The notes beneath the pieces are model-generated. The model did no database searches. It worked only from the letters and a program-made list of their open reading frames with translations, and was not told where the DNA came from. The position numbers and the translations under genes are program-made. From a virus: DNA of 64,000 nucleotides. The stretch's first letter is position 1; each line of letters begins with the position of its first letter. This document shows, piece by piece, positions 7,761 through 63,146 of this stretch. The stretch is from the IMG/VR virus record IMGVR_UViG_3300028840_002623, positions 1 through 64,000 of that record; one strand, 5' to 3'.

Positions 7761-9178
7761 ACTATTATGAACTCAGGGATTTGATAACGGAAAAACTTGC
7801 TTACAGTTTTATGCCCAACAGACTGTACAAGGAAAAACGCCACCAGAGAGCGGTGGAAGAAAAAGGAAGAAAAACCGATTATATGGAATACAAGTTGGAC
7901 AGCCCCGGTGTGGCTGTTCCGCAGGAGCGGTTATTGAACACAGAGGAAATCAATTCATTTGTAGAGGTAAGTTGCCGTGCTGCAGCGTGCCCTATGCCGC
8001 TCAATATTGATACGTGGGATGGGTTGCTTTGCCCGTTCAATTGTTTGTATTGTTTTGCAAACGCTTTTCGGGCATCTCTATACACCGCATTTTTTGATAA
8101 CAGTAAAACAATGGGCTTCAGGCATTGCAATCCTTCCATGTACAAAAGGGAATTGGAAAAACTCTTCAAACTCCGGGGAACAAATCCGCACGATGTCAAA
8201 GGAGATGTCGCCAAGGCTATTGCTTTGGAAATTCCTCTCAGGTTTGGAATCCGGTTTGAAGATTTTCTTGAAGAGGAAGGCAACGAAAAAATAGCGTTGG
8301 AACTGCTTCAGTATCTTTCTGAAGTAGAATACCCCACGATGATAAATTCAAAGTCAGCACTCTTGGGAAGGGATGACTATTTGCGAGCACTGTCGGACAA
8401 CCCGGCTGGAACGGCAGTTCACGTCACACTAATCTCCTCAAACAATGATGTACTACAATTATTGGAGCCGGGTGCACCTTCATATGAAGAAAGGCTTGAG
8501 GCAATTCGCAGTATGTCCCAAGCCGGAATCAAAGTTGTTGCCCGCATTGAACCATTCCTTCCCTTCATTTGCGACCAAAAGGATTATGTCCACCAATATA
8601 TGTTAGAGGTTTGGGCTGCAGGTGTCCGCAGTATAACGTTTGACACCTACAGTTACACCGCTAAAAATCAAGGCATTCGCCAATCATTTATCAACAATGG
8701 ATATGACTGGGATAGAATATTCCACATTGGATGCGAGAGTCAGGGCTTTGGTTCTATACTCTTGGGCAAGTTTATGGAGATGTTCCGGGATTTTGGATTC
8801 AAGTGTTCCTCTTTTGATATGGGGAATGTCCCGGATAATGATGACGTCATTTGTTGTGAGGTTGGTGATGTGTTCAAAGATTATGGCTTCAATTACGGCT
8901 GTACAGTTTATGCCGCACGAATGATTGCGAACCGGGGAAAGAAAGGCAAGACAACCTCTTGGAAGCATTTCAAAAAATGGGTTGACAAAAAAGGTGGCTT
9001 TCTTTCCAAGGCTCTTGAGAGTGAAGTACATATGCTTTGGAACTGTCGAGGGAATGACGCATATTCCCATTATTGGGCAAAAGGATTACAGCCAATGGGC
9101 TATGATGAATATGGAATTGTATGGGGGTCAAATCTTGAATATGATTTTAGGAAGGATTTATTGGAATGTCTAAAATAA
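7757..9178 (+). CDS. Radical SAM protein 2, SplB/COG1533-like (473 aa)
   Basis: LLCPFNCLYCFANAF carries CX3CX2C (C92, C96, C99). INSKSALLGRDDYLRAL and LEPGAPSYEERLEAIRSM are family signatures of SplB-type DNA repair photolyases (substrate-strand and EPR-S loops). ARIEPFLPF follows as in that family. An N-terminal ~85-residue extension precedes the barrel, and the C-terminal ~120 residues are distinct from the family core. Known members such as spore photoproduct lyase act on thymine dimers by hydrogen abstraction. It pairs with radical SAM protein 1 and overlaps the previous gene by 4 nt. Family secure, substrate unknown. Confidence 0.82.
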   Translation: MNYYELRDLITEKLAYSFMPNRLYKEKRHQRAVEEKGRKTDYMEYKLDSPGVAVPQERLLNTEEINSFVEVSCRAAACPMPLNIDTWDGLLCPFNCLYCFANAFRASLYTAFFDNSKTMGFRHCNPSMYKRELEKLFKLRGTNPHDVKGDVAKAIALEIPLRFGIRFEDFLEEEGNEKIALELLQYLSEVEYPTMINSKSALLGRDDYLRALSDNPAGTAVHVTLISSNNDVLQLLEPGAPSYEERLEAIRSMSQAGIKVVARIEPFLPFICDQKDYVHQYMLEVWAAGVRSITFDTYSYTAKNQGIRQSFINNGYDWDRIFHIGCESQGFGSILLGKFMEMFRDFGFKCSSFDMGNVPDNDDVICCEVGDVFKDYGFNYGCTVYAARMIANRGKKGKTTSWKHFKKWVDKKGGFLSKALESEVHMLWNCRGNDAYSHYWAKGLQPMGYDEYGIVWGSNLEYDFRKDLLECLK

Positions 9179-9969
9179 ATGACCGTATTGAAGCGATTTT
9201 CTCTCACGCAGTAGCACTACAGCAGGATGGGAGATTCAGGAACACTGTTCATTGTTCCGGGAAAATGATTCACATTATGAATCAAGACGTGACTGTGATA
9301 CTCCGGTTCCCAATAAGACAATACGAAACAGAGTTCAAACAACCAGTCAGTTTTTACGCCAACGACTATGACAGCAAACAGTTTGAAGAGCGTGACGGGA
9401 GAATTTGTTTCATCCAAGGGAATGAGGATTATGAACGCACCAAGAGTTGTAAAGTGCCCTCAACTCAAAACAAGAACCCGGAGAAAATCTGGAAGGGCAT
9501 CAAGATGGAAAAAGATATCAATTGTGTTCAAATAAAATCATCCATCCTCAGCCTTCTTGAAGATGACCTGTCACATATTGAATTCAGTTGTACCGGGGGA
9601 AAGTTAAAAGTGGTTCAGCGGAATATCTTTTCAGGAGCGTTGATTGAGATAGAAAAGAAAGCCGCAAAAGGATTGCTTGCTGAGAAGGATTCAACCGGAG
9701 ATTTCCCGGTGCTGGCGATGAGGACAAATGACTTTACAGCGTTGTTCTCTTTCGTGGATACAATCAAATTTTATTTCTCTGGTAATGGTTATATTTATTT
9801 CCAGAGCATTTCCAAAAAACTTAAAATGGATGGCATTGTCAGTCAATGTGTCTATGAAGAAATGAAAGGACAAGACGATGGGAGGAAAAAGCAGAAAGTC
9901 AGGAGGGGTGTCAAAGGCTCTGATAAACCGAATAAAGGGAAAAGGAAAATCAAAAGGAAAAAAGGATGA
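9166..9969 (+). CDS. Possible sliding-clamp-like protein with basic tail (267 aa)
   Basis: The body is mostly beta-strand and helix in an order reminiscent of clamp domains: an N-terminal helix before strands (INDRIEAIFSHAVAL), and a late FYFSGNGYIYFQSISKK followed by GIVSQCVYEEM. The last ~35 residues are almost pure Lys/Arg/Gly and should bind nucleic acid. A clear DnaN-type clamp is encoded two genes later, so this would be a second or specialised clamp, or simply an unrelated DNA-binding protein. Overlaps the radical-SAM gene by 13 nt and the next gene by 4 nt. Fold assignment is weak. Confidence 0.4.
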   Translation: MSKINDRIEAIFSHAVALQQDGRFRNTVHCSGKMIHIMNQDVTVILRFPIRQYETEFKQPVSFYANDYDSKQFEERDGRICFIQGNEDYERTKSCKVPSTQNKNPEKIWKGIKMEKDINCVQIKSSILSLLEDDLSHIEFSCTGGKLKVVQRNIFSGALIEIEKKAAKGLLAEKDSTGDFPVLAMRTNDFTALFSFVDTIKFYFSGNGYIYFQSISKKLKMDGIVSQCVYEEMKGQDDGRKKQKVRRGVKGSDKPNKGKRKIKRKKG

Positions 9970-10721
9970 TAGCACTGTTGAACCCCGCAACCTATTTTCT
10001 GACACTGGTCCAACAAAGCGGAAAAAACCCAAACTTTTGGATGAGTGAAGAATATATTGAGTTGGCGCAATTGCGTTGGCTCAATTGTAACGGAATGTTA
10101 CAAGGATTCAAAGATGAATTTGACAATTGGTTCTTTCCGTATTACAGTACATCTTCCAAACAATTTTATTCCTTCAACAACGTGACCGGATTTCAGAATG
10201 AAGAGGTTGGTGAGTTTTGGGATTATGAATTCATCTATGACCCAAAAAACTTTTTGGACTTGTCCGGGGGAAAATGGAAAGTGTTCCGAAAGAATATCAG
10301 GAAGCACCAAGACAAGTCTTGGGAATATCGGAAATTGGAAGACAGCGATGTTGCTGATGCTGGTGCCTTGTTGTTAGATTGGTCTTGTGGTAAAACTTTA
10401 TTTGACCCTGAAACCTTTGCCACATTCGTATTGTTCGGGGAAAATCGGTTTGGTTTATTCTTGGATGGAGAATTGAAAGGGGTGAACATAGCCGATACAA
10501 ATTGGAAATACATCAACTACCGGATTTGTTTTGATTCCGGGGAATTGTACTTGAATGAATTTCTGCGTTGGAAATTTTATACATCTGAATGGGTTCAAGA
10601 GCAAAACAAACTTGTTAATGACGGTGGAAGTTTGGGCTCAGAAGGATTGTACAGGTTCAAGAAGAAATTAAACCCAGTTGACATAAAAGGAATTTTTACA
10701 GGAGTTGGAAATGAAAGTTAA
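9966..10721 (+). CDS. GNAT-like acyltransferase, DUF2156-like (251 aa)
   Basis: FLDLSGGKWKVFRKNIRKH (near residue 95) matches the strand-loop-helix of DUF2156/FemX-like GNAT domains, where LSG-K-R-N contacts the acyl or aminoacyl donor. FGLFLDGELKGVNIAD and then INYRICFDSGELYLNEFL fit the central GNAT strands and splay. The C-terminal region of MprF, which moves amino acids from tRNA, belongs to this group. Here it closes the radical-SAM cassette and overlaps the clamp gene by 11 nt, suggesting group transfer onto DNA or a protein. The donor and acceptor are unknown. Confidence 0.5.
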   Translation: MIALLNPATYFLTLVQQSGKNPNFWMSEEYIELAQLRWLNCNGMLQGFKDEFDNWFFPYYSTSSKQFYSFNNVTGFQNEEVGEFWDYEFIYDPKNFLDLSGGKWKVFRKNIRKHQDKSWEYRKLEDSDVADAGALLLDWSCGKTLFDPETFATFVLFGENRFGLFLDGELKGVNIADTNWKYINYRICFDSGELYLNEFLRWKFYTSEWVQEQNKLVNDGGSLGSEGLYRFKKKLNPVDIKGIFTGVGNES

Positions 10722-11712
10722 CAGACAGGATTTTTTAAAGGTACTGAACACTGTTATTTGCGGAGCACACCGACAGGAAGTATTGGAGCAATCCAACTGC
10801 TTCATTTTCCGGGAAGGGTTGGTGACATCCTTCAATGGTGAAATACTTGCCACCGCTGTACTGAAAGAGTCACCCGGAGAATTTGCTGTCCCGGCTCACG
10901 ACCTTATCAACCTGATTGCGAAATTTCCTGACGATGAAATAGAGTTAACAATCAAGGGGAATGAGTTGATGGTTGCAGGGAAGAAAAAAAGAGCCGGGCT
11001 GACTACCCAAAATGAAATACTCCTGCCCATTGAGGACATACCTGTTCCCAAGAAGTTTGGAAAGATAAAAGAAGGGGTGATGGAAGCACTCTCAATGGCG
11101 GCAAAGGTTTGTTCATCGTCCAATGAGGATTATAGAGTGAGCCATGTACAGATTGCCCCGGACAAAATCCAAGCCACCGACAAACTCAGATTTCTCCGGG
11201 TTACAATTGACACCGGGCTCAAAAAGATTCTTGTTCCTGCTGGACCGATAAATGCCGTGTCTGGTATCAATATCACTTCTGTTTCGCTTACAAAGGGATG
11301 GTTGTGGATTGGTAACAAGGAAGTCAAGTTGGGCATCTGTTGCACTGAAGAAGAATATTATGAGGATGCTCTTATTGACGGTGTAATAGATATGGACAAA
11401 CCGAACATTGTACAACTCCCGGAAGAAATGGAAAAGGTTTTGGACCGGGCTTTGATTATGGCCAAGGATGATTGTACCCGGATGTCAAAAATAAAACTGT
11501 CAAAGAAATCCATTACAGTACGCACCCAAAAGGAATCCGGGTGGTATGAAGAGCGTCAACCCGTCAAGTACAAGGGGGATGATATGGAATTGATGGTTGG
11601 GCTTTCGCTCTTCAAGGATTTGCTCAACAAGACAAATAAAGCGTATGTGTCGCAGGAAAAGATGAAGATGAAAAAAGACAATGTTGAATTTCTTGTTTGT
11701 CTGGGAGAATAA
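10711..11712 (+). CDS. dnaN: DNA polymerase III beta-like sliding clamp (333 aa)
   Basis: DnaN-like: an N-terminal MKVNRQDFLKVLN helix, FSFNGEILA-type strands and FAVPAHDLINLIAKFPDDEIEL, which matches the beta-clamp domain 1 edge (…L..lik.lpd.ei.l). Three repeats fit 333 aa, slightly shorter than bacterial DnaN (~366). ATG 10711 has AGGAG 6 nt upstream. It would encircle DNA and tether the family A polymerase at 12896, loaded by the ATPase at 14677. A phage-encoded DnaN with a Pol I-type polymerase implies a self-sufficient replisome. Confidence 0.75.
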   Translation: MKVNRQDFLKVLNTVICGAHRQEVLEQSNCFIFREGLVTSFNGEILATAVLKESPGEFAVPAHDLINLIAKFPDDEIELTIKGNELMVAGKKKRAGLTTQNEILLPIEDIPVPKKFGKIKEGVMEALSMAAKVCSSSNEDYRVSHVQIAPDKIQATDKLRFLRVTIDTGLKKILVPAGPINAVSGINITSVSLTKGWLWIGNKEVKLGICCTEEEYYEDALIDGVIDMDKPNIVQLPEEMEKVLDRALIMAKDDCTRMSKIKLSKKSITVRTQKESGWYEERQPVKYKGDDMELMVGLSLFKDLLNKTNKAYVSQEKMKMKKDNVEFLVCLGE

Positions 11713-11714
11713 AA

Positions 11715-12899
11715 GTGCCGGGATTTTTTAAGGGTCAGACTACCAAAACCAAAACCCCGAAATTGCCTCAATGCGGTAAATGTGGACTGTATAAGGATTG
11801 TATCAGTCCCAAGATGGAAGTCACGGGGGCTGGGAACCGCAAAGTGTTGTTTGTCGCTGAAGCCCCCGGTGAAGAGGAAGACAGACAAGGAACGCAGTTG
11901 ATTGGTCCGGCAGGGCAGTTGCTCCGGGATGCGTTGGAAGACATTGATGTTGAGATTGACGACTGTTACACGACCAATTCGGTTATTTGTCGTCCACATT
12001 CAAAAGTAGAACCATACATGATATCCTGTTGCAGACCAAATTTGCTCAAATCTATTTCACGTATAAAGCCGAATGTCATTGTGGTGATGGGCAAGAGTGC
12101 CTTGGAATCATTGATGTTCAAGGAGTGGAAAAGAGATTTGGGAACCATAAACCGATGGGTGGGTTGGACAATTCCTTCCGGGCAGTACAACGCTTGGCTG
12201 TGTCCAACTTTCCATCCTTCATACATTTTACGAATGAATGAAGACCAACAGTTGGTCAGGATTTTTAAAGAACACCTCAAACGGGCTTTTCAATATGAAC
12301 GGAAAAAAGTCACCAGCCATTCACTTGAGTCACTGAAAAGCAAAGTGGAAATTATTACAGACACCCGGAAGGGTGGTGAACGAATGAAAGGGTTGCTCAA
12401 GAAGAAAGGGGTGTTGGCTTTTGATTATGAAACAACCGGGTTGAAGCCGGATACACCTGAACATAAAATTGTGTCTTGTTCTTTTTGCTTGAATGGAAAA
12501 GATACGTTTGCCACGATGATTGACGAAAGCAATATGAAAATGCTTTCCCGAATACTCCAGACACCCACGCTCAAAAAAGTTGCCTCCAATATTAAGTTTG
12601 AGGAACGCTGGTCACGTGCAATGTTTGGACACGGAGTGAGGGGGTGGGTATGGGATACCATGCTTGCCGCCCACTGTCTTGATAACAGGTCCAAAATAAC
12701 TTCTATCAAATTCCAATCCTATGTACACTTGGGCATTCCAAGTTATGATTCAACCATTTACCCGTACCTGAAAAGCGGAAGTTCAAACGGCATTAATAGA
12801 ATAGAACAAGCTGACAAGCACGAACTGCTAATGTATAATGGGTTGGACAGTCTGTTGGAATACCTTGTAGCGAAAAAGCAAAGGAAACAATTCAAATGA
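11715..12899 (+). CDS. Uracil-DNA glycosylase (family 4-like) fused to 3'-5' exonuclease (394 aa)
   Basis: Residues 1-190 are a [4Fe-4S] family 4/5-type UDG: cluster cysteines C20/C23 (CGKC), C92 and C105/C106, active-site motif A EAPGEEED (49-56) and motif B HPSYIL (167-172). Residues 230-394 are a DnaQ/Pol I-type proofreading exonuclease: Exo I FDYETTG (236-242), Exo II SNIKFEE and Exo III Y-x3-D-SLLEYLV. GTG start at 11715 with GGGAG upstream, 2 nt after the clamp stop. The polymerase domain follows as a separate overlapping gene, so uracil removal, proofreading and synthesis look like one split machine. The fusion is directly visible. Confidence 0.85.
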   Translation: MPGFFKGQTTKTKTPKLPQCGKCGLYKDCISPKMEVTGAGNRKVLFVAEAPGEEEDRQGTQLIGPAGQLLRDALEDIDVEIDDCYTTNSVICRPHSKVEPYMISCCRPNLLKSISRIKPNVIVVMGKSALESLMFKEWKRDLGTINRWVGWTIPSGQYNAWLCPTFHPSYILRMNEDQQLVRIFKEHLKRAFQYERKKVTSHSLESLKSKVEIITDTRKGGERMKGLLKKKGVLAFDYETTGLKPDTPEHKIVSCSFCLNGKDTFATMIDESNMKMLSRILQTPTLKKVASNIKFEERWSRAMFGHGVRGWVWDTMLAAHCLDNRSKITSIKFQSYVHLGIPSYDSTIYPYLKSGSSNGINRIEQADKHELLMYNGLDSLLEYLVAKKQRKQFK

Positions 12900-14287
12900 T
12901 ACCATATAAAATGAAAGCGTATAAATTGCTTCATAACGGAGCAATTACACTTGCTGAAATTGAAGGCAACGGAATCAAAATTGACTCCGGGTATTTGAAG
13001 AAAGCCCGTGGCCAAACGGAAAAGAAAATCAAACAGTTACAATCCGAATTGGAAAGTGGAGATGTCTCAAAGGTATGGAAGAAAGTTTTCAAGAGCAAAA
13101 CCAACTTCAACTCCAACGACCAATTGGGAAAGGTACTGTTTGAGGAATTGGAGTTGACACCCCCGGCTCTAACACCAACCGGGAAATATAAAACTGATGA
13201 GAAATCTCTCATGACGGTTGAACATCCTTTTGTTGAGGCATATTTGCGTATTAAAAAACTCCAAAAGGCTCTGACAACATACCTCAAAGGAATTGAGAAG
13301 GAAGTTGTTGATGGGTTCCTGCATCCGTTTTTCAATCTGAATATTACCAAGACATTCCGCTCATCTTCTGACTCACCTAATTTCCAGAACATCCCGGTGC
13401 GTGACAAGGAGTTGGGTGAACTAATTCGGAAAGCCTTCATTGCCCGGAAAGGGAACCACCTTGTTGAAATAGATTATTCGGGAATTGAGGTTTGCGTTGC
13501 CGCCTGTTACCACCACGACCCAAGAATGATTGAGTACATCAGTGACCCGGAAAAAGATATGCACCGGGATATGGCAGTGGAGTGTTACAAACTCAGACCA
13601 AACCAAGTGACAAAGGACATTCGCTTTTATGGTAAGAACTGCTTTGTGTTCCCTCAATTTTACGGAAGTGCGTATGTAGACTGCGCCAAGAACCTTTGGG
13701 AAGCAATCGGCACTGCCAAACTCAAGACAGAAGGGGGAACACCGCTCAAACGTCATCTGAGGAAAAAAGGAATCAAAGAGTTGGGTGATTGTGATTGGGA
13801 AGAAAAGCCCCGGATTGGAACCTTTGAACGACACATTCAGCAGGTTGAGAAAAACTTTTGGGAAGAAAGATTCAAGGTGTATGCCAATTGGAAAAAGAAA
13901 TGGTACTATGAATACATTGACCGGGGCTGGATGCTGACCAAGACAGGATTTATTTGCCAAGGCTATATGAAGCGGAATGAAATAATAAATTACCCAGTGC
14001 AAGGCTCTGCGTTCCATTGCTTGCTCTGGTCCTTGATACGGCTCAACAAGGAGTTGAAAAAGAGAAAAATGAAAACACTTCTTGTGGGACAGATTCACGA
14101 CTCAATATTGGCTGATGTTCCTGAAGAGGAATTGGATGAGTTTTTAATTCTGGCCAACAATGTAATGACAAAGCAACTGATGAAGAGTTGGAAGTGGATA
14201 AATGTGCCGCTGGAAGTTGAAGCGGAAGTTTGCCCAATTGGAGGCAGTTGGTTTGATAAAAAGGAAATGGAGATACCAAATGAATAG
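12896..14287 (+). CDS. polA: Family A DNA polymerase, polymerase domain only (463 aa)
   Basis: Pol I palm and fingers motifs: FRSSSDSPNFQNIP (154-167), motif A DYSGIE (193-198), motif B R243-x3-K247 then QFYG, and motif C QIHDSI near residue 400, where Ser replaces the usual Glu after the catalytic Asp. There is no exonuclease domain; both exonucleases are separate genes (11715 and 19041). Starts within the UDG-exonuclease stop (ATGA). It should copy the phage genome with the DnaN-like clamp. Motif B has one extra residue relative to E. coli Pol I, as in several phage polymerases. Confidence 0.93.
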   Translation: MIPYKMKAYKLLHNGAITLAEIEGNGIKIDSGYLKKARGQTEKKIKQLQSELESGDVSKVWKKVFKSKTNFNSNDQLGKVLFEELELTPPALTPTGKYKTDEKSLMTVEHPFVEAYLRIKKLQKALTTYLKGIEKEVVDGFLHPFFNLNITKTFRSSSDSPNFQNIPVRDKELGELIRKAFIARKGNHLVEIDYSGIEVCVAACYHHDPRMIEYISDPEKDMHRDMAVECYKLRPNQVTKDIRFYGKNCFVFPQFYGSAYVDCAKNLWEAIGTAKLKTEGGTPLKRHLRKKGIKELGDCDWEEKPRIGTFERHIQQVEKNFWEERFKVYANWKKKWYYEYIDRGWMLTKTGFICQGYMKRNEIINYPVQGSAFHCLLWSLIRLNKELKKRKMKTLLVGQIHDSILADVPEEELDEFLILANNVMTKQLMKSWKWINVPLEVEAEVCPIGGSWFDKKEMEIPNE

Positions 14288-28297: not shown

Positions 28298-28364
28298 GTG
28301 AGGGCTCAAGCCTTTTTTAGAGCCGTGGCTGATGAACTCCGGGAAGGCACTTGAGCCCCCACCT
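28296..28364. terminator. Long inverted repeat / convergent terminator
   Basis: Arm AGGTGAGGGCTCAAGCCTT (28296-28314) and arm AAGGCACTTGAGCCCCCACCT (28344-28364) are near-perfect complements with a 2-nt bulge and one mismatch, spacer about 29 nt. The first arm also contains a short hairpin AGGGCT-CA-AGCCTT followed by T6, an intrinsic terminator for the + strand. It spans the stop codons of the two converging operons. Confidence 0.7.
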
Positions 28365-29229
28365 GTTTGTAAAACTCAATTGTGTCTTTCAATCCTTCTT
28401 TCAAACTCAATTCCGGTTCCCAACCCAATCTTAAAATCCGGGAGATGTTCGCACAACTATGGCGAATGTCATATTGTAATTGAGGAACGTGGTCTACAAA
28501 TAATTTCTTCCCAGACACGTTCACTAACATCAGAAGCAAATTCAAGAGCGTATGTGACACCCCGGTTCCAACGTTGTACACTCCGGTATGTCGGGATTTT
28601 CCCATCAACATAAGAGCCTTCACGACATCCTTCACGTGAACAAAATCCCGGCTCTGCATTCCATCCCCGTTGATTTGAATTCGGTTGCCCCGGAGAATGC
28701 TGAGCGTGAAGGAAGGAATTGCGGCTTGAAGGTTCATTTGTCCCGGTCCATATACGTTGAAGAGCCTTAAACAAACTGTAGAAAGCCCGTGAACCCTTCT
28801 GTATAATCCGGTATAGATTTCTGCGGCACGCTTATTCACCCCGTAAGGACAGACGATGTTGTCACCCAACACTTCCTCTTCAGAAATCTTTTGACTCAGG
28901 CTATGCCCATATATAGCTGCAGAGGAAGTGAATATGAACCGGATATCTGACCGGGAATCCCGGCTTGCCTCCAAAAGGTTCACCGTTGTCAGTAAATCAT
29001 CCCCCAAAGCCCTTTCCGGGAATTCAAATGAAGTGGACAGGTTTGTTTCCGATGCCAGGTGATATACCACATCCATCCCGTCAACTAATTCACAACACAA
29101 TTCCCCGTCAGTCAAATCCATTCCGGTTTTCTTATCAGCCCCCGTGACAACATCACCTTGTTCCCGCAAAGCCTGAATTAAATGTCCGGCTATAAATCCG
29201 CTTGAGCCTGTTACTAAACATTTGGCCAT
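28306..29229 (-). CDS. NAD-dependent nucleotide-sugar epimerase/dehydratase (307 aa)
   Basis: Extended SDR fold: TGSSGFIAGH (Gly-rich NAD site near residue 7), VYHLASET, FTSSAAIYG (Ser) and the YGVNKRAAE Tyr-x3-Lys catalytic pair. Closest in style to UDP-glucose 4-epimerases and related 4,6-dehydratases. It makes a sugar nucleotide for the adjacent glycosyltransferases. Last gene of the leftward operon; its 3' end forms part of the inverted repeat. Exact substrate not readable. Confidence 0.82.
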   Translation of the reverse strand: MAKCLVTGSSGFIAGHLIQALREQGDVVTGADKKTGMDLTDGELCCELVDGMDVVYHLASETNLSTSFEFPERALGDDLLTTVNLLEASRDSRSDIRFIFTSSAAIYGHSLSQKISEEEVLGDNIVCPYGVNKRAAEIYTGLYRRVHGLSTVCLRLFNVYGPGQMNLQAAIPSFTLSILRGNRIQINGDGMQSRDFVHVKDVVKALMLMGKSRHTGVYNVGTGVSHTLLNLLLMLVNVSGKKLFVDHVPQLQYDIRHSCANISRILRLGWEPELSLKEGLKDTIEFYKQVGAQVPSRSSSATALKKA

Positions 29230-29858
29230 ACTGCATTTCCCTTTTCATCATACTGTTGTCCGCAAAAGCCTTCCATAGCCGGGTGGTCAGGAAAAGGAAC
29301 ACTTGGCCATTTAGTCTCAACGGATGAATGGCGTAACAGAGAATGTTCTATCAAAGGATGAACCTTGTCCCTGAGCCAACGCATATCTTTTACACGTGGT
29401 TGATTTCTCCGGCAAAGCCTTAAAACTTCCCGGTGTAAATGTTTGGGCAAAACTCCGCATTTGATTCCCCACATCCCACCGGACATTGGAAGCCGGGAGT
29501 GGTGGGGGTGGTCTTTCATTTCGTGAGCGTTCAACCCGGATTGTTCCCAAGCCTTCACTGCTTCTGCTTCCTTCACGTTCAACCGGGAATCAGAGTCACG
29601 AAAAATTACACGCTCACCTTTAATGTCCCAAGCGGCAAGAAATCTCCAAAACATTCCTGAATGAATCCGGCTCTTGGGTTTGAAAACAATTTCACAACCC
29701 AAATTCCGCAACTCAGTTGCAACAATTCCCTTCTCACAATAATACCGAATTGTCCACCCCGGAAAAATCTCAGGAGCCAATTGGGCATTGCATAAAGCCC
29801 CGTTGTAATAAACGGGAGAATTGCCATACAAACTTATACTGATTATTTTTTTAGCCAT
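29214..29858 (-). CDS. Glycosyltransferase-like protein (214 aa)
   Basis: GT-A-like features: an N-terminal strand-rich segment (IISISLYGNSPVYYNGALCNA), then VIFRDSDSRLN with the DXD-type metal/sugar-nucleotide site near residue 88. HSRLPMSGGMWGIKCG resembles the acceptor loop of small phage and bacterial glycosyltransferases. Overlaps both neighbours by about 15 nt. Donor unknown; could use the sugar made by the epimerase at 28306. Confidence 0.6.
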   Translation of the reverse strand: MAKKIISISLYGNSPVYYNGALCNAQLAPEIFPGWTIRYYCEKGIVATELRNLGCEIVFKPKSRIHSGMFWRFLAAWDIKGERVIFRDSDSRLNVKEAEAVKAWEQSGLNAHEMKDHPHHSRLPMSGGMWGIKCGVLPKHLHREVLRLCRRNQPRVKDMRWLRDKVHPLIEHSLLRHSSVETKWPSVPFPDHPAMEGFCGQQYDEKGNAVWPNV

Positions 29859-30472
29859 TCGTCATCATACCCAAAATTGTCAAAATCCGGTTCTGCCCAT
29901 TTTATGATATTGTCTATTGTCTTCTGGTCAGCGTATAACTCCAACAAAGAAAGCCGTTCAATTTGTTCGCCTTCCACCTCTGCTTGAGCAACAATTTTTT
30001 CCGCTGTTGTATTGAGTTTGCTTATTTCAATACCATCCTTCCAAAACGGGAGTTGTATCAATTCCTTCTCAAGCCGTTCAAGATGAACAATGTGCAAAGG
30101 CTGAGCCGGGTTCAACCATTCGGTTTGGTTCTGTAACAGCGGTTGTTTTTGGCGTTCATTTTCCGAAACACTTAACATCCATTCTGTAAATTTCGGAAAG
30201 TCATTTTGGGCTCCGCTCAAAGCCCGGAATTTGTATTGGTCTAAATGAGCCAACCGACAAGCACTGTACCAGATACTTGAAGCACGAGTAAATGGATTGC
30301 GAACAACAGTCCAACGGAAGTATTTGTCATAGTGGTCTACAATCCGATTGTTGTGAAACCCGGCTTCCAATAAACCATCTGAAAAATGTTCGTTCAGAAT
30401 CCGGTAAATGGTATGTGTCCCGGCTTTTGGCGTTGACACATAAACAAATCTTTGTTTTTTATTTATTCTCAT
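29843..30472 (-). CDS. Sulfotransferase 1 (209 aa)
   Basis: Carries both PAPS-binding signatures: 5'-phosphosulfate loop VSTPKAGTHT (residues about 12-21) and 3'-phosphate motif VVRNPFTRASS (near 56-66). Length suits the carbohydrate sulfotransferase-2 family (HNK-1/chondroitin type). These transfer sulfate from PAPS to sugar hydroxyls. Sits between a glycosyltransferase and a second sulfotransferase, with 14-16 nt overlaps. A phage APS-kinase-like enzyme is encoded at 60887. Confidence 0.85.
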   Translation of the reverse strand: MRINKKQRFVYVSTPKAGTHTIYRILNEHFSDGLLEAGFHNNRIVDHYDKYFRWTVVRNPFTRASSIWYSACRLAHLDQYKFRALSGAQNDFPKFTEWMLSVSENERQKQPLLQNQTEWLNPAQPLHIVHLERLEKELIQLPFWKDGIEISKLNTTAEKIVAQAEVEGEQIERLSLLELYADQKTIDNIIKWAEPDFDNFGYDDEWLKK

Positions 30473-31073
30473 ATTCCCACCTCACTCCTATTTCATCCAA
30501 ATTGTCGCACACCCATTCCAAATACCTTCCCGGTATATATTCCTTCCAATAACCGGGGACAACTTGACCAATGTGGTCACCGTGAACTTGATATCGGTCC
30601 ACTTCATTAAAACTTTCCAATACATCGGCTCTTTTTTTATTTTGCTCAACGCTGAATTTGCCGCTGATGCGGTGTTGAATATTCGGGGGTGTTATAATCC
30701 CAAATGTATCTTCAATCATTTTATAAATTGGACTGTGGTCATTATAAAACTCTTCATACCGGAGAATTGGAGCATGAGGACCAACAAGCATTTCTTCCAA
30801 CAGATTGAAACTCATTATTGTTCGCCTGACAACGGTCACAATATCATCGTCAACAACTTCCCTTTCATCTCTGTATCGGCTCATCCTGACTCTCAAAAGG
30901 GATGCAGCAACATCGTGAGGTTCACGGACAGATGCTATGACCATTGAGCCATCTGGCTCCCAATCTATGGGATGTGTTTTCGGAATGTTCATTTTTGGAA
31001 ACACCGAATCCAATATTTGCCATACAACAGTTGACCCACTCCGGGGTATTCCGCACATTACAATATCTTGCAT
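30459..31073 (-). CDS. Sulfotransferase 2 (204 aa)
   Basis: 5'-phosphosulfate loop CGIPRSGSTVVW (residues about 7-18) and 3'-phosphate motif VIASVREPHDVAASLLR. Different enough from sulfotransferase 1 to suggest another acceptor. ATG 31073 is preferred (GAGGGA 7 nt upstream; it keeps the operon's 15-16 nt overlap); a start 14 codons earlier would intrude further into the next gene. Confidence 0.82.
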   Translation of the reverse strand: MQDIVMCGIPRSGSTVVWQILDSVFPKMNIPKTHPIDWEPDGSMVIASVREPHDVAASLLRVRMSRYRDEREVVDDDIVTVVRRTIMSFNLLEEMLVGPHAPILRYEEFYNDHSPIYKMIEDTFGIITPPNIQHRISGKFSVEQNKKRADVLESFNEVDRYQVHGDHIGQVVPGYWKEYIPGRYLEWVCDNLDEIGVRWEYENK

Positions 31074-31663
31074 AAATCTTCCCTCAGATAAAAAGTGTTC
31101 CCTCCAAGCCTGCAAAACTCTTTGTAACCATTCATCTGGTACTTACTGCCTTCCATACAAACCAACTTGGGTGTATAGGAAAACAGATTCAAACTTTGCC
31201 ACGCTTCATAATTCATTCCTTCAACGTCAATGGATAGAAAATCAATCTCACGTGGACAATTATATTCCTTCAACACTTGAGTCAAAGGTCTCATGAATAC
31301 TTTTGTTTCAGTGTAACTCACTCCGTGATTTACTTCAGCTGATATTTTCACTTCCTCTTTGAAGGTGGAAACTTGTTCGCAACAATAGAAAGTTTTTTCA
31401 CCTTCTGTAAGCCCAATTGCGCAATTGACACAACTGACTTGAGGATTGTCTTTGTACATCTCCTGTAACTTCTCAAATTGGGTGGGCTCAGGTTCAATAC
31501 AAATGCCACCCCAGCCCCCGGTGTTCAATAACCGAATTGAGTTTGAATTCCAAAACCCATCTGCGGCTCCAACATCAACTACAAAGCCTTCATCTTGGTC
31601 TTTGAATAGCCAATACAAGATTCTATCTTCACCGTGCTGTCCGCATCCTTCACCCTCTTTCAC
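31058..31663 (-). CDS. FkbM-family methyltransferase (201 aa)
   Basis: FkbM signature: FVVDVGAADGFWNSNS (SAM site), CIEPEPTQFEKL (acidic residue after strand 2), and IDFLSIDVEGMNYEAW (post-motif strand). These O-methylate sugars or polyketides; beside glycosyltransferases it probably caps a glycan hydroxyl. Overlaps neighbours by 14-16 nt. Confidence 0.88.
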   Translation of the reverse strand: MKEGEGCGQHGEDRILYWLFKDQDEGFVVDVGAADGFWNSNSIRLLNTGGWGGICIEPEPTQFEKLQEMYKDNPQVSCVNCAIGLTEGEKTFYCCEQVSTFKEEVKISAEVNHGVSYTETKVFMRPLTQVLKEYNCPREIDFLSIDVEGMNYEAWQSLNLFSYTPKLVCMEGSKYQMNGYKEFCRLGGNTFYLREDLCKIL

Positions 31664-32444
31664 TTGCTGTCTCCAATATCAAATCCTTCCAAAACTCAAA
31701 CCAGCATATGTCCATACGCTGACTGTGAAATAACTTCTTCAATTCCGGGTATTCCATCTTCAATCTTTCCGGGGTCACTTCACCCCAATGATTGACTTGA
31801 AGACAGGGCAAACCTTCCAACAACCGGGTTGCCGGGCTTTTCAATACAATCGGAATAGAGCCTAACAAAATTGACTCCCAATGGCGGTGACAATCTGGTC
31901 CTGCTCCCGGTGGGCTCAAAATAAAAGGATGGCTCAACATCTGTTCGTAAAATTGATTCATTGATACGTGGTCAAACCCACCTTCAGTTGTAACCCATTC
32001 TTTGTTCTCAAACATCTCATACAATCCGGCTCTTGGGTTGACTGGTCTGTCGTGGCGTTGAGGTATCTTTCTCCAGAAATTCATATACACTAAATTGCGT
32101 TCAGGCAATCTCCCAACCTCCATCGCCTTTCTCATTCTTTCTTCTCCATCAGGAGATGTCCTCAAGCCGATTGGAACCGCTGTAACACGGGGGCTGGACG
32201 TGGCCACATTATTACTGAACCACATTTTGACGTTTGAAGGAAGTTGTTCAGCCATTTCGTCAGTACAATCCGCATCCGAAAAACTTGTCACCAAAACGCA
32301 CTCCGGGTAATGGGACAAAATCCCGAATTGTTTGACCACAGTATGAGTCCGGGAATAGACAATTGGTCCTTCTTGGATTCTTTCCGATTTGAAAGTCACT
32401 CCGGCAAGTTCAGCCAGTCGTTGATTGTTGATAAAATTTTTCAT
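31650..32444 (-). CDS. Exostosin/GT47-like glycosyltransferase (264 aa)
   Basis: HPFILSPPGAGPDCHRHWE followed by LLGSIPIVLKSP is the exostosin-like donor-binding block (…F.LcP.G.g.ds.R.wEal..G.iPVi…). The N-terminal half (VLVTSFSDADCTDEM, VTAVPIGLRTS) fits the acceptor domain. Probably transfers a sugar in the phage-modified glycan. 4-nt overlap with the gene upstream. Confidence 0.7.
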   Translation of the reverse strand: MKNFINNQRLAELAGVTFKSERIQEGPIVYSRTHTVVKQFGILSHYPECVLVTSFSDADCTDEMAEQLPSNVKMWFSNNVATSSPRVTAVPIGLRTSPDGEERMRKAMEVGRLPERNLVYMNFWRKIPQRHDRPVNPRAGLYEMFENKEWVTTEGGFDHVSMNQFYEQMLSHPFILSPPGAGPDCHRHWESILLGSIPIVLKSPATRLLEGLPCLQVNHWGEVTPERLKMEYPELKKLFHSQRMDICWFEFWKDLILETASERG

Positions 32445-57367: not shown

Positions 57368-57559
57368 TTATTTTTCATCCGGCTCTTTCGGGGGCTTCAA
57401 TGTCTCTTCATTTCGGATGATGTCAATCATCCCATTCTTGAACTCAATTGTCATCTTCCCGTACCATCTCCGTTTTTGAGCTGACACCAACAGTCCGTTT
57501 GTCCAATTCAATTCTTCCTCTTGTTTCTGTAACACTTTCGGGTTTTTAATTGTTTCCAT
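57368..57559 (-). CDS. Hypothetical small protein (63 aa)
   Basis: Overlaps the GDP-fucose synthase stop by 14 nt. Helix (KNPKVLQKQEEELNWTNGLL), then a beta-hairpin-like segment (YGKMTIEFKNGMIDIIR). Possibly a small DNA- or RNA-binding protein; unrecognised. Confidence 0.55.
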   Translation of the reverse strand: METIKNPKVLQKQEEELNWTNGLLVSAQKRRWYGKMTIEFKNGMIDIIRNEETLKPPKEPDEK

Positions 57560-58472
57560 TTTTCCTCCACCATTTGATTGTTCTTTGCAAACCTTTATGC
57601 AGTTCTGTTTTTGGTTCCCAATTTATTTCTTTCTGGGCTTTTGAAATGTCCAATTCTCTTGCTGGTTGTCCATCCGGTTTGCTTCTGTCCCATATTATTC
57701 CTCCATCATACCCCATCAACTCCCGTATCAAATAAACCAACTCATGTATTGCAACGCTTTTTCCCGTTCCCAAATTCATTGGTTCAGGACTGTCATACAT
57801 TTCCATAGCGTCAACAATTCCTTCAGCACAATCATCTACAAATAAAAATTCACGGGTTGCTTCCCCTGTCCCCCAAACTTCCACCGTTGGCAGATTATTT
57901 TTTATTGCTTCATCAAACTTCCGAATCAAAGCCGGAATGACATGTGATGACTCCGGGTTGAAATTGTCTTCAGGTCCATACAGGTTGACCGGAATGAGAT
58001 AAATGCCGGGAAAATTATATTGTTCCCGGTATGCCTGTGTCTGAACCAACAACGCTTTTTTCGCAATGCCGTATGGCGCATTTGTTTCTTCCGGGTATCC
58101 CTTCCAAATGTCTTCCTCTTTGAATGGAACCGGAGTGTATTTCGGATATGAACAAACTGTGCCAATTGTTACAAACTTCTTCAATGGTTTATTTGACCAA
58201 CAGGCTGCATCTATCAACTGAACTCCCATCATCAAATTATTATAAAAGAATTCAGCAGGGTGTTCCCGGTTTGCTCCAATCCCACCACACATTGCGGCAA
58301 GATGAATAATTGCTTCCGGTTGAAACTTGTCAAGATAAGAAATTACTTGGTCAGGATATAACAAGTCAACCTCATTGTGAGTTGGTATTCCCACCTCATG
58401 CCCTCTTTGCACCAAATGAAAATTTACATACTTTCCTAAAAAACCATGCCCACCTGTCACCCATACTTTCAT
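57546..58472 (-). CDS. fcl: GDP-L-fucose synthase (308 aa)
   Basis: SDR epimerase/reductase: TGGHGFLGKYV (NADPH site), AAMCGGIGANREHPAEF (family signature of GDP-4-keto-6-deoxymannose epimerase/reductase), FVTIGTVCSYPK (catalytic Ser), and APYGIAKKAL (Tyr-x3-Lys). Converts GDP-4-keto-6-deoxy-mannose to GDP-L-fucose. Overlaps the gmd gene by 4 nt, the classical pair. Confidence 0.92.
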   Translation of the reverse strand: MKVWVTGGHGFLGKYVNFHLVQRGHEVGIPTHNEVDLLYPDQVISYLDKFQPEAIIHLAAMCGGIGANREHPAEFFYNNLMMGVQLIDAACWSNKPLKKFVTIGTVCSYPKYTPVPFKEEDIWKGYPEETNAPYGIAKKALLVQTQAYREQYNFPGIYLIPVNLYGPEDNFNPESSHVIPALIRKFDEAIKNNLPTVEVWGTGEATREFLFVDDCAEGIVDAMEMYDSPEPMNLGTGKSVAIHELVYLIRELMGYDGGIIWDRSKPDGQPARELDISKAQKEINWEPKTELHKGLQRTIKWWRKNGNN

Positions 58473-59419
58473 TTCAATGCCTCCATTTCTGAATTTAAGA
58501 TTTCCATCAACATTAAATCAAACGGCAGAATGGGCTCCCAATCCAACTTTTCTTTCGCTTTGCTTGCATCACCACAAAGGTATGGAACCTCAAGTGGTCG
58601 TTTCAATCGGGGTGATTCAACTGTATAATCTCTCCAATCTAATTTGACCAATTCAAAAGCCCGTTGACACAATTGCCAAACTGTATGTGTTTCCCCGGTT
58701 GCTAATACATAGTCATCCGGTTCAGGCTGTTGAAGCATCAACCACATTCCCCGAACATAGTCAGGAGCATAGCCCCAATCCCTAATACCTCCTAAATTTC
58801 CCACTTCAAGTTTGTCCTGTAACCCGGCTTTTATTCGGGCAACCGCACGGCAGACTTTCCTTGTAATGAACGTTGGACCACGTCTGGGACTTTCGTGATT
58901 GAAAAGTATTCCGCAAGACACATGCAGTCCGTATGCCATCCGGTATGTTTGGGCCAAACGGTGTGCCGCAAGTTTGGCAATTCCATACGGGGAAACAGGA
59001 GCAAATTCATTCTCTTCATTCATTGTCCCTTCTACATCTCCATACATTTCGGAAGTTGAAGCCTGATACATTCGGATTTCTCTTGGACTGTCTTTTATCG
59101 CTTCCAAAAGCCGGAGTGTTCCAAGAGCGTTTACATCCATGGTATATTCTGAACACTCAAAACTGACCTTCACATGCGATTGAGCGGCAAGATTGTACAC
59201 CTCATCGGCTTGGCTTTCATACAACACGTGTCTCAGGCTTGTACCATCGGTCATATCTCCAAAATGTAAGTGAAGGTTATCAAATACATGGTCAATCCGT
59301 TGAGTGTTGAACTGTGATGCCCTTCTGACAATTCCGTGGACTTCATACCCCTTGTCCAAGAGCAGTTCAGCCAAATAGGAACCATCTTGTCCGGTGATTC
59401 CGGTAATGAGGGCTTTCAT
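58469..59419 (-). CDS. gmd: GDP-mannose 4,6-dehydratase (316 aa)
   Basis: LITGITGQDGSYLAELLLD is the near-invariant Gmd start; then VYNLAAQSHVKVSFE, YQASTSEMYGDV (catalytic Thr/Ser-Glu), PYGIAKLAAH (Tyr-x3-Lys), FNHESPRRGPTFITRK (GDP site). First committed step from GDP-mannose to GDP-fucose; GDP-mannose must come from the host. Placed between head genes. Confidence 0.95.
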   Translation of the reverse strand: MKALITGITGQDGSYLAELLLDKGYEVHGIVRRASQFNTQRIDHVFDNLHLHFGDMTDGTSLRHVLYESQADEVYNLAAQSHVKVSFECSEYTMDVNALGTLRLLEAIKDSPREIRMYQASTSEMYGDVEGTMNEENEFAPVSPYGIAKLAAHRLAQTYRMAYGLHVSCGILFNHESPRRGPTFITRKVCRAVARIKAGLQDKLEVGNLGGIRDWGYAPDYVRGMWLMLQQPEPDDYVLATGETHTVWQLCQRAFELVKLDWRDYTVESPRLKRPLEVPYLCGDASKAKEKLDWEPILPFDLMLMEILNSEMEALK

Positions 59420-59853: not shown

Positions 59854-60903
59854 TCAAAATAATTCTTTACCAACCCACGTACTGCGTCGTTTTGCTTCCC
59901 TTACAGTTTGTGGTATTCTTTTGAACTCATCTCCCACATGGGATTTTCTTGGCAACTCTGACCTCAATGAGTCGTTGACATTTTTCTTCTTTTCTCTTAA
60001 TGACCGGGCTTGTCCCTTTTGCACTTCTCCAACGCTGGCTGGAAGCCATGCACAACGACAATTCGGATGTCTGGGTATCAGCCCCCGTGCCTCATCAATA
60101 GTGAATACAGTTCCTTCCAAATCTGCACATTGGTCGCAAACCTTCTCATCTTCAGCGGTGCTCCATTCTACATCCGCTGTCACTCCTTCAACTCCCAACT
60201 GTTGAAGAGCATCCAGCTGTCCTTCCGAATGTGCGTAAATGATTTCAGTCCGGGCTAATGTCATTGCCCGTTGTCTTGTAATCCCGGTAATGGTCTCTGT
60301 CATATTCCGGGCAATCATTCTTGGACTCAAACCGTTGGCCATTCCATCCGCCAATACCCGGCTCAACTGTTGGGACATTGCCGCTGTAATCCCTTTCAAC
60401 TCTTCAAATGACCGGGTATACAACAACTGTACTTTGCTTGTCATCTCCGGTTGAGCGAATGATGACTCAATAAACTGTTGTCTGCTTCCTTGGTAAAAAT
60501 CCGGATTTTCAGCCATTATCTCCGGGTGCATTTCCGTATAACTCCGAACAGCACCCCTTCTGTACGATGAATGGACATAAGGGGCTGTCCACGGGTCACC
60601 CACTATGGGGTCAACAAACAACGGGGCATTTGGTTCAGCGAGTTGTTCTGTAAGCCACGATTGAAATGAGGTTATTTTTTCGGCATCAGTTCTGAACCTC
60701 CACGCTTGTCTTTCCGGGAGTTGGTTTGCAACCAATAACTCCCGGTTGAAGGCAAATGGTTCGCTTTCCTCAAGCCCCAAAACATCCAACTTCCATATTG
60801 CTTGGATTATCAAACTGCGGATATAATAAAACCGCTTGCGCATTTCGGCTTCATATGCCCTGCGCAATGTTGTTGTCCGGGTTGGGTCAAGTTTGAGTAC
60901 CAT
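59854..60903 (-). CDS. SPP1 gp7/Mu F-like head morphogenesis protein (349 aa)
   Basis: The C-terminal third shows the family signature: RAMTLARTEIIYAHSEGQL, WSTAEDEKVCDQCADLEGTVF and PRHPNCRCAWLP. The N-terminal half is helical. These proteins enter the prohead with the portal and may travel with DNA at ejection. Overlaps the APS-kinase fusion by 17 nt, where a portal-gp7 neighbourhood is normally unbroken. Confidence 0.9.
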   Translation of the reverse strand: MVLKLDPTRTTTLRRAYEAEMRKRFYYIRSLIIQAIWKLDVLGLEESEPFAFNRELLVANQLPERQAWRFRTDAEKITSFQSWLTEQLAEPNAPLFVDPIVGDPWTAPYVHSSYRRGAVRSYTEMHPEIMAENPDFYQGSRQQFIESSFAQPEMTSKVQLLYTRSFEELKGITAAMSQQLSRVLADGMANGLSPRMIARNMTETITGITRQRAMTLARTEIIYAHSEGQLDALQQLGVEGVTADVEWSTAEDEKVCDQCADLEGTVFTIDEARGLIPRHPNCRCAWLPASVGEVQKGQARSLREKKKNVNDSLRSELPRKSHVGDEFKRIPQTVREAKRRSTWVGKELF

Positions 60904-61645
60904 GTTTTTCCCTTATAGCAGTTGCACTTATTGCCTCTGTGTCCATATCCAATCGGATTTCTCTGATGCCCCACCCTACTTTGCGTCCATAACACACCTC
61001 TTTCACGTCAGGCACGACAATAACTTTTATTCTGTCCCCGAATACATCTTGTATCATCTTCTTTCGCTCTGCTGTGGTGTACGGATTTGAAGGTGTTATC
61101 ATTGTATCCCGGAGTGCAACACAAACATCTTTCCCTTCATCCAATACCGATTGAAACAATTTGATATGACCTTCGTGTAATGGTTGGTATCTGCCTATGA
61201 AATAACTGTACTCATAATTGTCTTCTTTTAACACCAACATTAAACTCCGCAAAGATTCCATCGGCAAAAGATGATTGTGGTCAACTTTGTAATGGTATTC
61301 TTCCTCTGAAGGCTCTTCATAAAAATGTCCTTCACGCTCTGGCATATCCCGTTTTACATACACCCAAATCGGATGACACACTTCATCAATTTCTTTTCTC
61401 ACTTCCTCCATTGGAGCAATTACAGATACAACAACGGGTTTTTGTTCACTGAGAACCTTGGCAAGCCGGGCAACACGTAAGTTATGCTCACGCCTATCAT
61501 CCCGGCTGAACCCGGCTCCCAGTGATATTGAATCCCGCATTTCGTCACCATCTAACAAAACACCATCCAAGCAATCCGCCAGCGGTCTGCCCACTGTAGT
61601 TTTTCCCGCACCGCTTTGTCCTGTCAGCCACACAATCTTATTCAT
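60887..61645 (-). CDS. APS kinase-like / nucleotidyltransferase fusion (252 aa)
   Basis: Residues 1-~140: APS kinase-like P-loop WLTGQSGAGKTTV (6-18), LLDGDEMRDS and GAGFSRDDRREHN, conserved in adenylylsulfate kinases that make PAPS. Residues ~145-252: an HxGH cytidylyl/adenylyltransferase module, GRYQPLHEGHIKLF, ending ISATAIREKHG. Domain order equals that of animal PAPS synthase, but the second domain is too short for ATP sulfurylase and looks more like NadM-type transferases. GGAGGA precedes the ATG. Nested between portal and gp7 genes. APS-kinase role likely, second activity open. Confidence 0.75.
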   Translation of the reverse strand: MNKIVWLTGQSGAGKTTVGRPLADCLDGVLLDGDEMRDSISLGAGFSRDDRREHNLRVARLAKVLSEQKPVVVSVIAPMEEVRKEIDEVCHPIWVYVKRDMPEREGHFYEEPSEEEYHYKVDHNHLLPMESLRSLMLVLKEDNYEYSYFIGRYQPLHEGHIKLFQSVLDEGKDVCVALRDTMITPSNPYTTAERKKMIQDVFGDRIKVIVVPDVKEVCYGRKVGWGIREIRLDMDTEAISATAIREKHGTQT

Positions 61646-63146
61646 TGTTCATTTCCTCCTGAGGTTCAGTTGTTCCATTTGCTTCCTCTTCAGCCACAGC
61701 GGCATCAAGTTCAGCTTGCTCATCTTCAAATTCCTTCTGACGCTTTTCTGCCGCCTTGATAATTTCTTTGATTTCGGCTTCATCAAGGTCCATAAACATC
61801 TTGAAGAATATCTCCGGTGGGATGAGCAGGTCAACTCCGCCAGCAACATACTTGCTGAACGCTTCCACCCGTGCCTTCAGCACTGTCGCCTTGTCCAATT
61901 CGGAAGGCTGAGCAAGGTCAGGCCAAATTATTTCATATTTTTTCGGCTCTGGCAACACGCCATACGCTATGAGCCTGTCAACCAATGGTCTGATAATGTA
62001 CGGGGAAAGATACTTGTTCTGTCTCCGGGCAATTCGCTTGTTCCAATTCCGGGCATCTTCCTCTGCCGCAAGTTTTGCTTGTTCAGAGCCCATAAAAATC
62101 CGCTTGGGCACTCCCATCGCAATCGCAATTATTTCCAACTGAACATCCACGTGGGCTTTCGGTTCAGCAACTTGGGGATTGAGACTGTTGACGGATATTC
62201 CTTGAAGCCTCAAATACCTCTGAAGCCCGTTTGCATAACTTGTTATCTGTTCGGTCAGTGCGGCATCTTCATCTGAGCCTGCAACCGGGGCTTGGGCTTG
62301 TGGGTCCATTTCAAATGCATAGCCGGGGAATCCACCCTTCCAAAACATCTCAGCAGAACCACCACAGATTTTTCTCAGGTCATAAAGCCGATTGAATAAT
62401 GATTGCATCCGGGGAACACCGAACACTTCTGAACTTTCCCGGTTGTCCGCCACGTGAATCAATCTTGTCCAATGGACCAACTCACCTTTCCCGGTATCAA
62501 TTTTGGAATCACCCGTGCTGGCTTGCGGTTGTGCAGCATCCCCGAATGTGATTTCATACATCACGGGCTTTCCATACCGTGGGTTCATCTTGTCACGTTG
62601 GGTGCTTTTTACTTTGACAACTGATTCGGAGAAAGCCCGGAGAAAAAGCAATTCATATTCCGGTCTGTTTTCGGTCACATCACCTTTCTCATCTATTCCT
62701 TCCACGGGGTCACTCAATTTCTTTCCATCATTCAACCCCAAAAGCAATACACCAAACCTTCCAATGCCGGACAGTCTGTCAATCCTGAGCATGAATGCAT
62801 TGAGGTTGCGTTGCTGTTCCAAATCCTTCCAACTCTTTTCAAACTCAGTGTCATCCCCTTTAACATCCTCAACAATCTGAGGTTCATCTGCCCAACTTTC
62901 TTCCGGGAACAAACTCACGACACGGGTTGCCAGCCCTTCCCGGTCATACATCAACTGATATTGGTCTGTGGTCAACTCTTTCGGGTATCCACATTCATCG
63001 TCAATGTCCCTTCTTGGGTCAATAAGGTTGCTCAACAACGATGAACGGCTCATACTGGCGTTCAGCATCATATCCCGAATCACCTGTTTGTCTTTTTCAT
63101 TGAGCACAACAGGGGGCTCAACTTTTTCTTTCTTTCGTATCTTCAT
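61638..63146 (-). CDS. Portal protein, DUF1073-like (502 aa)
   Basis: IRDMMLNASMSRSSLLSNLID, LYDREGLATRVVSLFPEESW (DREG…V..p…w) and RIFMGSEQAKLAAEEDARNW are typical of DUF1073/SPP1-type portals. The C-terminal ~90 residues are acidic and helical, as in portal crowns. It is directly downstream of the terminase large subunit, and overlaps the next gene by 8 nt. Confidence 0.88.
   Translation of the reverse strand: MKIRKKEKVEPPVVLNEKDKQVIRDMMLNASMSRSSLLSNLIDPRRDIDDECGYPKELTTDQYQLMYDREGLATRVVSLFPEESWADEPQIVEDVKGDDTEFEKSWKDLEQQRNLNAFMLRIDRLSGIGRFGVLLLGLNDGKKLSDPVEGIDEKGDVTENRPEYELLFLRAFSESVVKVKSTQRDKMNPRYGKPVMYEITFGDAAQPQASTGDSKIDTGKGELVHWTRLIHVADNRESSEVFGVPRMQSLFNRLYDLRKICGGSAEMFWKGGFPGYAFEMDPQAQAPVAGSDEDAALTEQITSYANGLQRYLRLQGISVNSLNPQVAEPKAHVDVQLEIIAIAMGVPKRIFMGSEQAKLAAEEDARNWNKRIARRQNKYLSPYIIRPLVDRLIAYGVLPEPKKYEIIWPDLAQPSELDKATVLKARVEAFSKYVAGGVDLLIPPEIFFKMFMDLDEAEIKEIIKAAEKRQKEFEDEQAELDAAVAEEEANGTTEPQEEMNNE

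Follow-up and report, generated by a model that had tools for sequence, protein, structure and literature searches.

The question raised by this locus is why a gene for a kinase fused to a nucleotidyltransferase (NT) should lie between two head genes of a phage, and what its product would make. The window, by which we mean the whole stretch of DNA analysed, comprises bases 1-64,000 of a 69,880-bp IMG/VR virus record, and the three genes concerned are:

61638-63146, minus strand: portal protein (PF06381 E 1.6e-31; PHROG 146 E 7e-69).
60887-61645, minus strand: kinase-nucleotidyltransferase fusion of 252 aa, a putative minimal PAPS synthase (full-length homologues; model pLDDT 88.5).
59854-60903, minus strand: MuF/SPP1 gp7-like head protein (PF04233 E 3.6e-18; TIGR01641 E 9e-16).

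The open-reading frame of the fusion shares 8 nt with the end of the portal gene and 17 nt with the beginning of MuF, precisely the overlaps that an earlier note on this DNA had described, and the MuF start is consistent with relatives; the overlaps suggest that portal, kinase/NT and MuF genes may be translationally coupled. The flanking genes are terminase, portal, MuF and a DUF2213/protease-like gene, the terminase being complete once the full 69,880-bp record is read beyond the window end. This is not a chance open-reading frame, as full-length homologues occur in isolated phages and a relative is encoded in 254 IMG/VR stretches, which were recovered with an alignment query (a scan with the single protein gave no matches). 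PHROG 10255 is the sole family found to span the whole protein (residues 4-249, E 3e-27), and its annotation is 'kinase', nothing further.

Portal and MuF genes were said in the earlier note to be normally adjacent, which was true of roughly half (gap <~150 nt) of the 70 portal relatives whose MuF could be detected, the others being separated by 0.2-2 kb. The same locus in related phages gave a divided answer: in L193 and L194, the closest of 80 portal-found relatives (portal 80%, gmd 91-95% identical), portal leads directly to MuF with a 10-nt gap and the site is empty of the kinase/NT gene, while L195 has a 50% identical kinase copy near its own portal. Other phages carry the gene in different structural regions, one example being a position behind apparent capsid genes, as judged by our reading of the neighbours. 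Given the empty site in the closest relatives and the other locations elsewhere, the portal-MuF position looks like an insertion site, incidental and not a clue to function, and the loci compared gave no sign of a role in head assembly.

Of the protein's two halves, the N-terminal one exhibits these features:

61226-61645, minus strand: APS-kinase-like domain, residues 1-140, with a shortened lid (PF01583 E 3e-17; structure compared with APS kinase 2yvu).
61595-61621, minus strand: P-loop GQSGAGKTT, residues 9-17 (G9, G14 and K15 invariant in 35 sequences).
61493-61552, minus strand: DGDxxR and GFSxxDR motifs containing D34, R37, F46 and R51 (conservation in 35 sequences).

The assignment to APS kinase made in the earlier note withstood both profile and structural comparison. 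The PF01583 match covers residues 3-98 at 63.5 bits, passing the gathering cut-off of 21.1, and the protein model aligns best with APS kinase 2yvu (VIA-align 2 Z 19.9, rmsd 2.1, 142 aligned); no other small-molecule kinase matches better, APS kinases (Z 19.9) ranking above gluconate kinase (16.9) and shikimate kinase (14.2). Relatives have kept the P-loop and the DGD region: among the 35 sequences R37 and R51 are present in 35, F46 in 34 and D34 in 33. The Mycobacterium tuberculosis enzyme CysC binds APS through residues that include Asp480, Arg483, Phe492 and Arg497 (PMC4373884), and D34, R37, F46 and R51 repeat the spacing of these four residues identically. The P-loop lysine (K15) and this APS-binding Asp/Arg/Phe/Arg set, one of our criteria for an APS kinase, are all found here.

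The kinase assignment is weakest at the lid, which is shortened, and in its score of 61.1 bits against the apsK equivalog TIGR00455, below the cut-off of 138.7. The lid is cut to ...REGHFYEEP and has no counterparts of CysC Lys562 and Arg559, so the full set of Arg559/Lys562/Phe576 equivalents is missing in the window kinase, where H107-F108 might replace CysC His575-Phe576; disturbance of the lid abolishes CysC activity (PMC4373884). Several kinases partnered with the same small domain in other loci score above the TIGR00455 cut-off (L029 174 bits, L037 201, L018 152, L014 156), and the L014 gene at 10001-10843 is a 280-aa phage open-reading frame in which a curated-level APS kinase and the small adenylyltransferase form one chain. 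Phosphorylation of APS by the kinase half is a well supported prediction.

The C-terminal half is a compact domain with its own set of motifs:

60890-61222, minus strand: small adenylyltransferase domain, residues 142-252 (PF01467; hhalign to NadM prob 99.8; model pLDDT 90.9).
61166-61195, minus strand: GRYQPLHEGH nucleotidyltransferase motif, residues 151-160 (R152, Q154, H157 and H160 invariant).
60974-60991, minus strand: YGRKVG family signature, residues 219-224, beside the deleted NadM Trp stretch (G220, R221, V223 and G224 in 35/35).
60911-60931, minus strand: ISATAIR motif, residues 239-245 (R245 invariant).

The CTP_transf_like profile PF01467 matches residues 148-213 above its cut-off (E 1.6e-7), and the domain is ~105-110 aa in size, in agreement with the HxGH domain of only ~110 aa first recognised. 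Across 76 sequences GRxQPxHxGH, an Arg (R179), NP, YGRxVG and ISATxIR are held in common, and the HxGH and ISxTxxR motifs together with the fold place the domain in the nucleotidyltransferase superfamily. By fold it is equally near PPAT, glycerol-3-phosphate cytidylyltransferase and NadM (PPAT 5h16: VIA Z 10.5, rmsd 3.4, 110 aligned; NMNAT 1f9a: Z 9.5, rmsd 2.9, 106 aligned). The comparison with ATP sulfurylase and NadM that the earlier note proposed came out on the side of NadM by profile (hhalign prob 99.8, E 5e-29, vs Sat prob 3.8), with the NMNAT fold also matched. Close homology to Sat was rejected on this profile comparison, the superfamily fold being common to both; ATP sulfurylase was absent among the structure matches listed for the small domain alone, an absence compatible with some likeness. 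The window protein has no PF01747 match and neither the QxRN nor the GRDHAG motif of Sat, and a Pelagibacter relative has a weak PF01747 match on the NT gene itself (17.8 bits, below cut-off).

Against the NadM equivalog TIGR01527 the domain scores 29.9 bits, the cut-off being 181.2. In NadM structures an invariant Trp stacks on NMN; this residue (W85 of A8, invariant in 14 NadM) falls in a stretch of ~27 aa that is absent from the NT family alignment, as is the NadM C-terminal part, while the adenylyl-transfer motifs are intact. Relative to NadM, R179 and R221 are new invariant arginines. On the evidence of these alignments the small domain appears to derive from NadM and not from a classical ATP sulfurylase, and a compact acceptor site with R179 and R221 would fit a small anion, sulfate for instance.

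The two parts travel together. We found the kinase followed by the NT in one chain in 54 loci, the reverse order in one chain in 6, and the parts as neighbouring genes in 39 (NT then kinase in 24, kinase then NT in 15), with 13 loci in which only the NT half was recognised; these counts include near-identical records, ~83 being distinct at 85% identity. Both parts are paired in some 80 distinct relatives, from phages, Patescibacteria, Pelagibacter and Alphaproteobacteria. That they are fused repeatedly in either order, and recur as neighbours, is good evidence of consecutive enzymatic steps. The observation that the fusion mirrors animal PAPS synthase survives for the domain order of the window protein, not for the family, in which both orders occur, nor for the second domain, whose profile cannot usefully be matched to classical ATP sulfurylase. 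In L019 the APS kinase open-reading frame (10544-11386) starts with an HNH/IscB-like segment (NF040563 match, residues 93-172), which may be a homing-endonuclease insertion or reflect a misplaced start.

Genes around the pairs point to sulfation. Among 128 proteins within ~2 genes of window-type pairs, Sulfotransfer_3 (16) and Sulfotransfer_1 (12, overlapping sets) were the two commonest families, followed by glycosyltransferases, whereas the families listed for NadM control loci included nicotinate phosphoribosyltransferase, NAD synthase and NrtR, and no sulfotransferase. A sulfotransferase open-reading frame directly adjoins the pair in L016, L019, L034, L029, L066, L078, L012 and L015; in the surroundings of many NT loci none was recognised. 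Sulfotransfer_3 was present in 12 of 32 phage records with a window-type pair vs 2 of 39 portal-related records (p 8e-4, ignoring shared ancestry, with unequal record lengths and many fragments), and among 380 Patescibacteria a sulfotransferase was present in 6 of 9 NT genomes vs 29 of the 371 others (p 3e-5, shared ancestry again ignored). A sulfotransferase-motif regular expression hit 1 of 17 cellular genomes, probably a false match, being too crude there and merely indicative in phages.

Class II relatives, found in Alphaproteobacteria, marine phages and Casjensviridae, have more divergent kinases, and their neighbours include some sulfotransferases and also adenylosuccinate synthetase, QueC and NADAR genes; their role may differ from that of the window type. 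In Casjensviridae (L001 7565-8747, L003 7565-8741) the class II fusion overlaps a NADAR-domain gene, with MazG and a cysteine dioxygenase annotation nearby, where again the role may be a different one. In the marine phage loci L032-L068, genes for adenylosuccinate synthetase, QueC and 2OG-Fe(II) oxygenase are frequent in the vicinity of class II fusions, which suggests a nucleotide or DNA modification context.

The window phage itself encodes candidate users of PAPS, two sulfotransferase-like genes, along with genes for glycan and GDP-fucose synthesis:

29843-30472, minus strand: sulfotransferase, Sulfotransfer_2 type (PF03567 E 2.5e-6, above cut-off; KAGTHT and RNPFTR motifs).
30459-31115, minus strand: second sulfotransferase-like open-reading frame, Sulfotransfer_3 type (PF13469 E 4.3e-5, just below cut-off; RSGST motif).
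31058-31663, minus strand: FkbM-type methyltransferase (PF05050 E 1.7e-14).
31650-32444, minus strand: exostosin GT47-like glycosyltransferase (PF03016 E 9.8e-5, below cut-off).
28306-29229, minus strand: NDP-sugar epimerase/dehydratase (PF01370 E 7e-48).
58469-59419, minus strand: GDP-mannose 4,6-dehydratase, gmd (TIGR01472, above equivalog cut-off).
57546-58472, minus strand: GDP-L-fucose synthase-like, fcl (NF047922 E 1e-86, below strict cut-off).

The glycan cluster around the sulfotransferase genes contains further glycosyltransferase-like open-reading frames beside those named. The two sulfotransferase genes, ~30 kb from the kinase/NT gene, are the strongest local clue to its function, and together with the glycan cluster and gmd/fcl they give PAPS an obvious use in this phage; the sulfotransferase matches are weak, one falling below cut-off, and phmmer against the PDB found no solved relative of either. 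The gmd and fcl genes (57546-59419, GDP-fucose pathway) sit inside the head region, between MuF and the protease-like gene, and at 91-95% identity in L193/L194 are more conserved than the portal (80%). Elsewhere in the window one gene (11697-12899) joins a uracil-DNA glycosylase superfamily domain with a DNA polymerase 3'-5' exonuclease domain, a family A polymerase being encoded separately after it (12896-14287), and the replication region at 7757-10721 has a radical SAM protein near an open-reading frame weakly similar to the LPG synthase C-terminal domain.

Where would the APS come from? In the pair-bearing genomes of 14 Patescibacteria and 3 Pelagibacter, no match to Sat (PF01747) passed the cut-off and CysD (TIGR02039) was not detected, a soft absence as the genomes are drafts; Patescibacteria are in general not known to assimilate sulfate. 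These 17 genomes carry an APS-kinase-like gene, which in several of them lies beside sulfotransferases, and as they show no further origin for its APS, the pattern points to the small domain as the source; we infer APS formation from this pairing and genome complementation. We think it probable that the 252-aa protein is a minimal bifunctional PAPS synthase feeding the phage sulfotransferases, the first of two options in the earlier note and the one favoured by the APS kinase pairing, the sulfotransferase neighbours, the 17 carriers with no other ATP sulfurylase detected and the APS-binding residues. The ~105-aa C-terminal domain would convert ATP and sulfate, the presumed acceptor, to APS and pyrophosphate, the N-terminal domain would phosphorylate the 3'-OH of APS to give PAPS, and PAPS would pass to the sulfotransferases encoded at 29843-31115. 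The sulfated target is probably a glycan made with the neighbouring glycosyltransferase-like, epimerase and GDP-fucose genes, presumably on the virion or host surface. The adenylyltransferase would have originated as a NadM-like enzyme that lost its NMN-binding part, independently of Sat and CysDN.

A different division of labour, which we consider unlikely, is that the kinase makes PAPS from host APS while the small domain activates another precursor of the same sulfated glycan, such as a sugar phosphate or polyol phosphate that would become an ADP- or CDP-linked donor. The glycosyltransferases so common near the pairs would fit, as would a fold no closer to NadM than to PPAT and glycerol-3-phosphate cytidylyltransferase, and phage hosts may have CysDN, which is present in the alphaproteobacterial carriers of the pair; yet the pair persists in the 17 genomes with no detected Sat/CysD and no other evident APS source, and fusion in both orders with recurrent neighbours favours consecutive steps. 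Less probable still, and in our view distinctly so, is a kinase acting on a small molecule other than APS, whose product the NT adenylylates to an ADP-linked glycan donor in the manner of HldE or NadR. The shortened lid, the good structural match to gluconate kinase (Z 16.9) and the divergence of class II kinases lean this way, against which stand the retained APS-binding residues, the pairing or fusion of the same NT with curated-level APS kinases in several relatives, and the sulfotransferase context.

The second option raised in the earlier note, APS kinase joined to NAD-type adenylyl transfer, was right about NadM ancestry and finds no support for function, the NMN-Trp stretch being lost and NAD genes being absent nearby. 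The related case of NAD salvage by a nicotinamide riboside kinase and NMN adenylyltransferase is very improbable: a NadM-derived domain and the NADAR gene beside the Casjensviridae relatives speak for it, but the NadM C-terminal part is missing as well as the Trp stretch, the neighbourhoods have none of the NAD genes of true NadM loci, and profile and structure searches matched the kinase to no NR kinase family. That the gene is a recently acquired or decaying moron with no selected function is barely credible, as the empty site of L193 and L194 is outweighed by an intact frame with all catalytic motifs, the 50% identical copy near the portal in L195 and motifs invariant across divergent phages.

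As a minimal PAPS synthase the protein would resemble animal PAPSS1/2 in joining an APS kinase and then an HxGH adenylyltransferase in a single chain, and human PAPSS1 (1xjq_B) is the top Foldseek match of the full model (E 1.7e-8). It differs in that the second domain is ~105 aa and NadM-derived, not a full Sat, and has neither QxRN nor GRDHAG, and in domain arrangement, 240 residues aligning at an rmsd of 9.8. With the Aquifex-type fused ATP sulfurylase-APS kinase and with CysDN/CysC it shares a homologous APS kinase (2gks: Z 19.5, rmsd 1.9, 142 aligned) and, as proposed here, sulfate activation, but it has no recognisable Sat or CysD/CysN part. NadM remains the closest profile, with the GRxQPxHxGH and IS.T.IR motifs in common, and is set apart by the Trp stretch and C-terminal part that are gone here, the new invariant R179 and YGR, and a sulfotransferase in place of a NAD context.

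Viral cysC has been described, without validation, as assimilatory sulfate reduction (PMC10914622, PMC12713726), and the function of phage sulfotransferases has been called unclear (PMC10580990); we found no earlier description of the kinase/small-NT pair in the open-access literature. We lean towards the wider view that the small domain is, besides Sat and CysDN, a third ATP sulfurylase of independent evolution, ~105 aa long and NadM-derived, which stands beside or is joined to APS kinase in phages, Patescibacteria, Pelagibacter and Alphaproteobacteria, and that phages use it to make PAPS for virion or host glycan sulfation. If so, sulfate activation would have one more evolutionary origin and its smallest form yet, and a PAPS synthase this compact, in one chain, would be of use in enzymatic sulfation. 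It would also show how phages and streamlined bacteria with no known ATP sulfurylase could supply their sulfotransferases, at least some viral 'cysC' genes would be sulfation genes and not genes of assimilatory sulfate reduction, and the function of phage sulfotransferases (PMC10580990) would become a testable question.
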